Positions 52,920 to 55,568 of a DNA stretch of 64,000 bases are shown piece by piece (positions within the stretch are counted from its first letter, which is position 1; each line of letters opens with the position of its first letter). Position numbers and translations under genes: made by a program. The stretch is taken from positions 558,001 through 622,000 of the forward strand of contig NZ_CP015103.1 of the NCBI RefSeq assembly GCF_002214505.1. The letters are read 5' to 3'. The notes beneath the pieces are model-generated. The model was not told the origin of the DNA. It ran no database searches and saw only the letters and a list, made by a program, of their open reading frames with translations. The stretch is from Thermococcus siculi (GTDB lineage Archaea; Methanobacteriota_B; Thermococci; Thermococcales; Thermococcaceae).

Positions 52920-54110
52920 ATGGCGAGGGTAATCGTTGACGCGCAGGCTGCGAGAGCCATAGGAAAGGGTGCGATGATAGTGTTCAAGAAGGGTGTGGTG
53001 AGAACCGAGGGGGAGTTTTCGCCGGGCGATATAGTCGAGGTCTACACGAGGGGAGGCAAGTTCCTCGGGAAGGGTTTCGTCAACCCGAACTCCAATATAA
53101 TGGTCAGGCTGATCACGAAAGACCGCGAGACAGAGGTCAACAAGGAGCTCTTCCGCGAGAGGATAAGGAAGGCCAACGAGTACCGCAAGAAGATCCTCGG
53201 CTACGATAAGGCCTACAGGATGGTCTACGGCGAAGCTGATTACCTTCCGGGTCTCATAGTCGACCGCTTCAACGAGATAGCCTCCGTTCAGATTTCGAGC
53301 GTTGGCATGGAGAGATTTAAACTCGACCTTGCCGAGGCCATAATGGAGGCCGAACCGGAGATAGAGACTGTCTTTGAGAAGAACACGGGGCGCTCAAGAA
53401 GAAGGGAGGGCCTCCCCGAGGTCGAGCGCGTCCTCCTCGGGAAGGAGAAGTACCGGACTATAATAACCGAGGGTAAGGCCAAGTTCCTCGTGGACATGCG
53501 CGGTCAGAAGACGGGCTTCTTCCTCGACCAGAGGGAGAACAGGATAGCCCTTGAGAAGTACGTAAAGCCGGGCATGAGGGTTCTTGATGTCTTCACCTAC
53601 ACTGGCGGCTTCGCAATCCACGCCGCCGTCGCAGGCGCTGACGAAGTCGTTGCCGTTGACAAATCCCCCTGGGCAATCAACATGGTGAAGGAAAACGCGA
53701 AGCTGAACGGTGTCGAGGACAGGATGAAGTACGTCGTTGGAAGTGCCTTCCCGGTCATGGAGGAGATGATAAAGAAGGGTGAGAAGTTCGACATCGTTAT
53801 CCTCGATCCTCCTGCCTTCGTTCAGCACGAGAAGGACCTCAAGAGGGGTCTAAGAGCCTACTTCAACGTGAACTACGCCGGCCTTCAGCTCGTCAAGGAG
53901 GGCGGAATACTCGTCACGGCATCCTGCTCCCAGCACGTGGACATGCAGGCCTTCAAGGACATGGTTATCGCTGCAGCCGCAAAGGCAGGAAAGTTCCTTA
54001 AACTCCTGGAACCCTACAGAACCCAGGCGCCGGACCACCCGATACTCATGGCATCAAAGGATACCGAGTACCTGAAGGCTCTCTTCCTCTACGTTGAGGA
54101 TATGAAGTGA
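52920..54110 (+). CDS. RlmI-type class I SAM-dependent rRNA methyltransferase
   Basis: This 396-residue protein has an N-terminal PUA domain (about 1-75, GDIVEVYTRGGKFLGKGFVNP), a small middle domain and a Rossmann methyltransferase domain. The latter has motif I VFTYTGGFAIHAA (about 222-234), motif IV LDPPAFV (about 298-304) and TASCSQHVD (about 337-345). Its cysteine matches the catalytic position of RlmI-like 5-methylcytosine enzymes. The likely substrate is 23S rRNA, but the exact site cannot be read. GGTGGTGAGAG precedes the ATG. Confidence 0.92.
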   Translation: MARVIVDAQAARAIGKGAMIVFKKGVVRTEGEFSPGDIVEVYTRGGKFLGKGFVNPNSNIMVRLITKDRETEVNKELFRERIRKANEYRKKILGYDKAYRMVYGEADYLPGLIVDRFNEIASVQISSVGMERFKLDLAEAIMEAEPEIETVFEKNTGRSRRREGLPEVERVLLGKEKYRTIITEGKAKFLVDMRGQKTGFFLDQRENRIALEKYVKPGMRVLDVFTYTGGFAIHAAVAGADEVVAVDKSPWAINMVKENAKLNGVEDRMKYVVGSAFPVMEEMIKKGEKFDIVILDPPAFVQHEKDLKRGLRAYFNVNYAGLQLVKEGGILVTASCSQHVDMQAFKDMVIAAAAKAGKFLKLLEPYRTQAPDHPILMASKDTEYLKALFLYVEDMK

Positions 54111-54212
54111 AGGCTATACATAGCGTTGGGGACGATGAGGAGAATGCACCTCCACTGAACCCGGCAGTTCGTGATGAGAAAAAGGGTCTGAGTCCCTGAA
54201 CCATTTTATTAT

Positions 54213-54265
54213 GGCTATTTGAATAACCAAAATTCTTTTATATTTGGTCATTTAAATGACCAAAT
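54213..54265 (+). promoter_or_regulatory. Palindromic double operator at the AAA ATPase promoter
   Basis: A perfect 24-bp palindrome occupies 54242-54265 (half-site ATTTGGTCATTT). A related imperfect dyad, GGCTATTTGAATAACC, lies at 54213-54228, with centres 33 bp apart, about three helical turns. Between and overlapping them is the TATA-like cttttatatt (54235-54244), so transcription should start within or just after the perfect palindrome. This fits cooperative repression by a dimer bound on one DNA face. Confidence 0.65.
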
Positions 54266-54275
54266 GGTGAGTCTA

Positions 54276-55568
54276 ATGGTTGACTTGAATGACTATCTTC
54301 TAAAGCTTTCAGCTGAACTTCCGGGAAGGTTTGACTATGCAAGAAACCTGAGAAAAAGGTTCGTTTTCGAGAAACTCGCCCGTGTTGTTGACGAGTATCT
54401 AAACGATGGGGTTCCCAGAACCCTTCTACTCCCTGGACTCAGGGGCACGGGTAAAACGACCCTTTTAGCCCAGCTCTACTTCTATACCCTTTCCCAGACT
54501 TCAGACGTCATCTATTTCTCAGCCGATGAACTCCACCTCCTTGGGTTCGGCCTCCACGAAGCTATAGAGCGGTATTTTAAGCTGTTTCAGCCAGAAAGGC
54601 CAATTATACTCCTGGACGAGGTTCAGTATGATGACCAGTGGGATTTGACCCTAAAAGTCCTCCACGACAGCAGAAAGGCCTTGGTCATAGCAACTGGCTC
54701 GTCTGCCATAAGGCTCAGGGAGAGCCCGGACCTGGCAAGGAGGGCAGTTCACATAGGCATAAAGCCGCTTAGCTTCAATGAATACCTCCACCTCATCGGA
54801 GAAGAAGCGTTGCCTCCCCAACTGGACGCCCTATTTGAGTGGGAGGCAGATAAACTCGAAAAGGCCGTTTCGAGAACAGTCAGGGTTGGGGGGAAGGTGG
54901 AAGGATATTTAAGAACTGGTTCTCTTCCAGTGGCCCTTGAATTCGATGAGAAGACGGCTTATGAGCTGATATTCTCCCTTATTGAGAGGGTGATCTACAA
55001 AGACCTGCCCGAGGTCAGGAACTTCGATTCATCTACCCTGGACTCCGCCATGAGACTCCTCGTTCTCCTCTCCAATCCAAAAGGGGAACGCTTCAGCTAC
55101 GAAAGGCTGTCCAAGGTGCTGGGGATATCAAAGGGAACCGTCATGGAGCTGGTAAGGGCGTTCGTTGCGAGTGGACTTCTCCTTGAGGTGCCCCCAGTGG
55201 GGAGCGTTTCTAAGAAAATACGGAGAAGTCCAAAGCTCAAGTTTTTGGCCCCGTCTTTCAGGGCGGCACTACTCTCAAAGTTCGACGTCGTTGAGATAGC
55301 CCCTCTCCTCGAAGACGCCGTGGCCCTTTACCTGTCCGAAGAAGGAACTCTGGAGTACGAACCCGGAAAAAGGGGTGCAGACTTCGTTTTGACCAGGAAG
55401 GGAAAGCGCTACGTTGTTGAAGTGGGGCTTGGAAAGGACGACTACTCCCAGGTAAAGAGGAGCATGGAGCGCTTGGGAGCGGATTTTGGAATCGTAATTG
55501 GGAAGGAGTTCGAAGTGAATGGAAACCTGCTCATGATACCGTGGTGGACATTCTTAGGGCTTGTGTAG
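54276..55568 (+). CDS. AAA-type ATPase with DUF4143-like C-terminal region
   Basis: This protein has about 430 residues: Walker A LRGTGKTTLL (about 61-70), Walker B ILLDEVQYDDQWD (about 111-123), a sensor strand ALVIATGSS (about 136-144) and an arginine-rich segment. A winged-helix part with HTH (SYERLSKVLGISKGTVMELV, about 272-291) follows. The C-terminal region has ADFVLTRKGKRYVVEVG, a nuclease-fold-like strand pair of the DUF4143 kind whose final Lys is replaced. Related archaeal ATPases are widespread, often mobile, and of unknown role. Base composition looks more AT-rich than the neighbours. GGTGAG precedes the ATG at 54276. The end overlaps the convergent methyltransferase gene by 15 bp. 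Confidence 0.85.
   Translation: MVDLNDYLLKLSAELPGRFDYARNLRKRFVFEKLARVVDEYLNDGVPRTLLLPGLRGTGKTTLLAQLYFYTLSQTSDVIYFSADELHLLGFGLHEAIERYFKLFQPERPIILLDEVQYDDQWDLTLKVLHDSRKALVIATGSSAIRLRESPDLARRAVHIGIKPLSFNEYLHLIGEEALPPQLDALFEWEADKLEKAVSRTVRVGGKVEGYLRTGSLPVALEFDEKTAYELIFSLIERVIYKDLPEVRNFDSSTLDSAMRLLVLLSNPKGERFSYERLSKVLGISKGTVMELVRAFVASGLLLEVPPVGSVSKKIRRSPKLKFLAPSFRAALLSKFDVVEIAPLLEDAVALYLSEEGTLEYEPGKRGADFVLTRKGKRYVVEVGLGKDDYSQVKRSMERLGADFGIVIGKEFEVNGNLLMIPWWTFLGLV

Follow-up and report, generated by a model that had tools for sequence, protein, structure and literature searches.

A palindrome array ahead of a solitary ATPase gene

The window analysed here is a stretch of 64 kb (bases 558001–622000) of a Thermococcus genome that consists of a single contig of 2.03 Mb and has its near relatives in Thermococcus or the Thermococcaceae. 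It contains, among housekeeping genes, a solitary ATPase gene (Table 1), whose promoter region carries the perfect 24-bp (12+12) palindrome ATTTGGTCATTTAAATGACCAAAT. Palindromes with arms of at least 12 nucleotides are expected about 0.005 times per 64 kb; ATTTGGTCATTTAAATGACCAAAT is the longest one in the window. A degenerate copy, TTATGGCTATTTGAATAACCAAAA, in which 9 of 12 positions pair, is centred exactly 33 bp upstream of the centre of ATTTGGTCATTTAAATGACCAAAT, and the TATA-like element TTTTATAT is located between the two dyads. Both dyads and the TATA box between them had been described in an earlier note on the window and were confirmed by our analysis. The region delimited in that note (54213–54275) covers most of the array, but misses a third, weaker dyad, which is centred exactly 33 bp downstream of the ATTTGGTCATTTAAATGACCAAAT centre and covers the start codon.

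Half-site scores of 12 orthologues, calculated as a function of the offset, peaked at exactly –33 (16.2 of 22) and exactly +33 (12.1 of 22), with most other offsets scoring 3–9. The +33 peak was observed in the subfamily of close orthologues as well as in a subfamily whose members are 50–52% identical to the ATPase. A pattern search retrieved the full ATTTGGTCATTTAAATGACCAAAT site only once in the 2.03-Mb genome, the runner-up carrying three mismatches. This single occurrence points to a dedicated rather than a global regulator, and an operator shared with a global regulator was ruled out on the same grounds.

Table 1 Features of the ATPase locus (coordinates refer to the window)
Feature	Position	Strand	Basis
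Box C/D sRNA gene (sR43)	54130–54193	+	Rfam, E 9e-9, just below gathering score
Distal degenerate dyad TTATGGCTATTTGAATAACCAAAA (candidate operator –33)	54209–54232	.	9/12 pairs; –33 offset peak over 12 orthologues
BRE-like CAAAATT, before TATA-like box	54228–54234	+	sequence reading; putative assignment
TATA-like box TTTTATAT	54236–54243	+	sequence reading; ATG-relative position kept in orthologues; putative assignment
Main perfect palindrome ATTTGGTCATTTAAATGACCAAAT (candidate operator 0), overlapping expected transcription start	54242–54265	.	single in genome; kept at orthologues
Ribosome-binding site GGTGAG	54266–54271	+	sequence reading
Third, weak dyad over start codon (candidate operator +33)	54275–54298	.	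half-site matches 8/12 and 7/12; +33 offset peak
ATPase gene, 430 aa; AAA_14, predicted winged helix (DUF4143) and putative PD-(D/E)XK-like C-terminus; PADLOC PDC-S01	54276–55568	+	domain, profile and model evidence
Codons of predicted winged-helix DNA-binding domain (residues 251–325)	55026–55250	+	AlphaFold; Pfam HTH hits among members

Pfam assigns AAA_14 and DUF4143, in this order, to the gene product. In its AlphaFold model (mean pLDDT of 83.5), an AAA+ domain is followed by a winged helix and an alpha/beta C-terminal part. The winged helix, already attributed to the protein in the earlier note, is predicted at about residues 251–325, with helices 275–282 and 286–298 and strands 302–305 and 320–323, and HTH_IclR/MarR-type Pfam hits were found among family members. 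The closest solved folds, ORC/Cdc6, RuvB and DnaA, match mainly its ATPase portion and give low TM-scores over the whole length; a sequence search for a related solved structure gave none at a convincing E-value. D369, E382 and K387 are conserved in the C-terminal part, and a glycine replaces the canonical lysine of E-x-K. The PADLOC profile PDLC04787 (PDC-S01, a single-gene phage defence candidate) matches residues 50–400 at 1.1e-35. Ten members from other phyla and subfamilies also match PADLOC PDC-S01, all at 9e-17 or below.

Conservation of the dyads and states of the locus

Absence of the palindrome at orthologues, which by the earlier note would have spoken against its reading, was not observed: a dyad is situated 10–12 bp ahead of the ATG in all 12 close orthologues (68–86% identical to the ATPase, the query itself included). 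A dyadic element overlapping the gene's own promoter is thus kept among orthologues, albeit with low tandem scores (see below) in three of them (L012, L016, L017). An identical dyad core directly ahead of the start was detected by a strict pattern test in five of ten members of the 50–52% identical subfamily, in which a second dyad at +33 covers the start codon; several of the remaining members carry the diverged form GTTGGTTCAACATAATGACCAAAT. Residues 261–290, comprising the helix-turn-helix, show an identity of about 80% between the two core-sharing subfamilies, as compared to 50–52% overall.

The box C/D sRNA gene lies between a predicted methyltransferase gene (52920–54110) upstream and the candidate ATPase operator, and was found at this position in most of the Thermococcus genomes examined. 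At the other side, the 3' ends of the ATPase gene and a convergent methyltransferase gene overlap by 15 bp (55554–55568). The C-termini of these methyltransferases read ..HKP or ..NKP at most ATPase-bearing loci and are one residue shorter at empty loci.

Three states of the interval between the sRNA gene and the convergent methyltransferase gene were observed. It contains dyads and the ATPase gene; or nothing, the sRNA gene then adjoining the methyltransferase stop codon; or, in eight genomes (L064, L067, L077, L080, L081, L096, L097, L103), dyads without the ATPase gene. Seven of these eight orphan arrays retain three dyads or traces of them, and the ribosome-binding site is lost. Their third dyad, which adjoins the methyltransferase stop codon, is on average more symmetric than in gene-bearing genomes; indels within a dyad occur in two genomes. 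The related (50–52% identical) subfamily is encoded elsewhere in the genome in four of the eight, and not in the other four. The simplest reading of the orphan arrays is that they are decaying relics, though they might still be used in trans.

Tandem dyads across the ATPase family

The earlier note had anticipated the same half-site near paralogous ATPase genes; what was found is the same architecture with different half-sites. Distant paralogues carry other palindromes in the same layout, i.e., two to four tandem dyads, about 32–35 bp apart, around the TATA box and start codon. A dyad of the TTTGGTACGGTATAGTGTACCAAA type is present twice, 35 bp apart, at two loci (L212, L222), the second copy adjoining the ATG, and a TTTTGTCTTTTCATGAAGACAAAA-type dyad occurs twice, 32 bp apart, at a third (L035). 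Four TTTATGAAAGTGAACTTTCACAAA-type (TGAAAGTnnACTTTCA) dyads with a strict 32-bp period are found at L114 (G000:C1:1273750–1273880), the last one at the ATG of a paralogous ATPase gene. The genome to which the window belongs contains six ATPase paralogues with differing elements. Genome-wide searches with the candidate operators of two of them retrieved one only at its own ATPase gene, and the other at its own gene plus one single match with two mismatches elsewhere.

For comparison across the family, we used a tandem score, which takes two dyads 28–42 bp apart and counts the positions, out of 12, at which their four half-sites all agree. Since this score was devised after the pattern had been seen, the controls matter. 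Among the Thermococcus members, a set that contains orthologues and amounts to roughly a dozen operator types, 44 of 80 scored at least 5, and in all 44 the spacing was 32–36 bp, although 28–42 bp was allowed. The 53 other genes of the window scored at most 4, as did 30 genes of the sister ATPase family PF01637, none of which has tandem dyads. Judged against dinucleotide shuffles, 27 of 51 relatives outside Thermococcus were significant at p ≤ 0.05, compared with 4 of 101 genes in their neighbourhood on the same contigs. In an independent sample of 40 PDC-S01 paralogues from four bacterial genomes, 20 reached p ≤ 0.05 and 16 p ≤ 0.01; the dyads were mostly 31–33 bp apart, and their sequence differed between paralogues. 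Half or nearly half of the family members have no tandem dyad by this score. A single bacterial genome may hold as many as 19 PDC-S01 paralogues, and several of these have tandem dyads of their own (G078, G083, G087 and others).

Among 110 members, operator similarity tracks protein similarity (r about 0.45). The helix-turn-helix showed the only clear partial effect on operator similarity (partial r of 0.16, n = 110; reached in none of 2000 permutations). This effect was gone among 33 representatives less than 50% identical, and helix-turn-helix identity as a specific predictor of operator sequence is unsupported among distant representatives. Taken at the level of sequence, the data suggest that many subfamilies, in archaea and bacteria, pair the protein with a private tandem operator.

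Autoregulation, alternative readings and known systems

The private site at the gene's own promoter, the three-turn spacing and the winged helix in the product together argue for autoregulation by the product. We therefore consider it likely that the ATPase itself uses the palindromes as a tandem operator and, by its predicted binding to them, would regulate, and most likely repress, its own gene. Autorepression had been raised in the earlier note, and self-regulation is now supported by the conservation at orthologues, the uniqueness in the genome, the predicted winged helix and the dyads of paralogues. An ATPase dimer would bind each dyad via the winged helix, and adjacent dimers, on the same helix face about three turns apart, would cooperate. 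The region around the BRE and TATA elements, the transcription start and the start codon is covered by the sites, so that bound protein would most likely block basal factors or RNA polymerase, and the gene would presumably remain self-repressed until some signal frees the protein. A matching private pairing of protein and operator may operate in many archaeal and bacterial PDC-S01 subfamilies. Repression is the likeliest effect, since in most types the sites overlap or flank the TATA box, transcription start or start codon; the dyads located upstream of TATA in some subfamilies would also allow activation. Autoregulation alone does not explain the eight genomes with arrays but without the gene at the locus.

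The persistence of orphan arrays where the gene was lost would also be compatible with a separate, dedicated transcription factor that binds the dyads, the ATPase being merely the regulated gene, and binding of the dyads by the ATPase is itself a prediction. However, the site is single in the genome, no regulator gene adjoins it, and each subfamily, including the many paralogues within one genome, would need an extra regulator with the same 32–35 bp geometry, rendering such a factor unlikely. The dyads might alternatively serve the main activity of the ATPase as docking sites or targets, for example as a segregation-like site or as a platform of self DNA on which the ATPase/PD-(D/E)XK protein is kept inactive, with the promoter overlap being secondary. 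The gene-less arrays with a third dyad better than at gene-bearing loci, the array of up to four strictly periodic dyads at L114, and the fold neighbours (AAA+ proteins that act on DNA, e.g., Orc1/Cdc6) are in line with such a role. However, the sites known so far are promoter sites of the gene, and the searched operators occur essentially nowhere else in the genome; we regard docking as quite improbable.

The earlier note had also offered the long, terminal-like palindrome as a recognition site for movement of the gene. Such a site, or a transposon-like end, would agree with the presence or absence of the gene at one place, between the box C/D sRNA and methyltransferase genes. This reading is unsupported and very improbable: the dyads are confined to the 5' side in a strict promoter geometry, with copies at promoters and none at the gene's 3' end, comparison of empty and filled junctions revealed no obvious target duplication, and no phage match was found. 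Neither terminal repeats at both ends nor a target duplication, as expected of transposon or integration ends, were thus found. It is hardly any more credible that the dyad arose by chance or represents an RNA hairpin in the 5' leader, as palindromy in itself might suggest. The low number expected per window, the conservation of the dyad, the spacing fixed over paralogues and the matched controls contradict chance, and a loop-less dyad across the expected transcription start would make a poor RNA hairpin.

A 2026 survey ranks PDC-S01 fourth in frequency among the defence (candidate) systems of prokaryotes, with copies in the tens of thousands and so far no mechanism, and states that most such candidates (PDCs) await experimental validation (PMC12988326). 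TT_P0211 of Thermus thermophilus (AAA_14, DUF4143, HTH) was upregulated 6.6-fold in the presence of a plasmid in an Argonaute-positive strain (PMC4406477), which is consistent with regulated expression. Operators or autoregulation are not mentioned in the accessible portions of the literature naming PDC-S01, and a literature search on DUF4143, COG1373, related ATPases of archaea and the palindrome itself, covering few subscription papers, turned up no description of them. Autoregulation as such is a long-known principle, but a family-wide private tandem operator appears to be new. If self-specific operators hold across subfamilies, PDC-S01 proteins would be sequence-specific DNA-binding ATPases with sites readable from the genome. 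Each protein could then readily be assayed on its own dyads, and dozens of natural protein–operator pairs would be at hand for decoding winged-helix specificity. It is conceivable, though rather doubtful, that PDC-S01 proteins are one-protein immune switches: on the private operator the gene would be silent and the enzyme inactive, until the protein is freed by a signal of infection (the ATP state or competing foreign DNA). Operator and effector would then form a self-contained alarm.

Archaeal Orc1/Cdc6 initiators bind inverted-repeat sites. The ATPase resembles them in the predicted order of AAA+ domain and winged helix, and 2qby is among its best solved-fold matches. However, it differs in a whole-length TM-score of about 0.3, in the extra, putative PD-(D/E)XK-like domain, and in having its sites at its own promoter and single in the genome, not at an origin; given its Pfam assignment (AAA_14/DUF4143), it was not classed with the initiators. 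ParA of P1 is a partition ATPase and an autorepressor that acts on its own promoter through a palindromic operator, as proposed here for the ATPase, but belongs to another ATPase class and works with a partner protein and a partition site; no ParB is encoded at the window gene. The archaeal ATPase_2 family (PF01637) is likewise expanded in archaea and has a distantly related ATPase domain, but differs in lacking tandem dyads (0 of 30 members). The ATPase also resembles PDC-S01 (AAA_14 + DUF4143, COG1373-like), whose profiles it matches and whose fusion of an ATPase to a PD-(D/E)XK fold, described in the survey (PMC12988326), may correspond to the putative PD-(D/E)XK-like C-terminus; its housekeeping surroundings set the window gene apart from this defence candidate.
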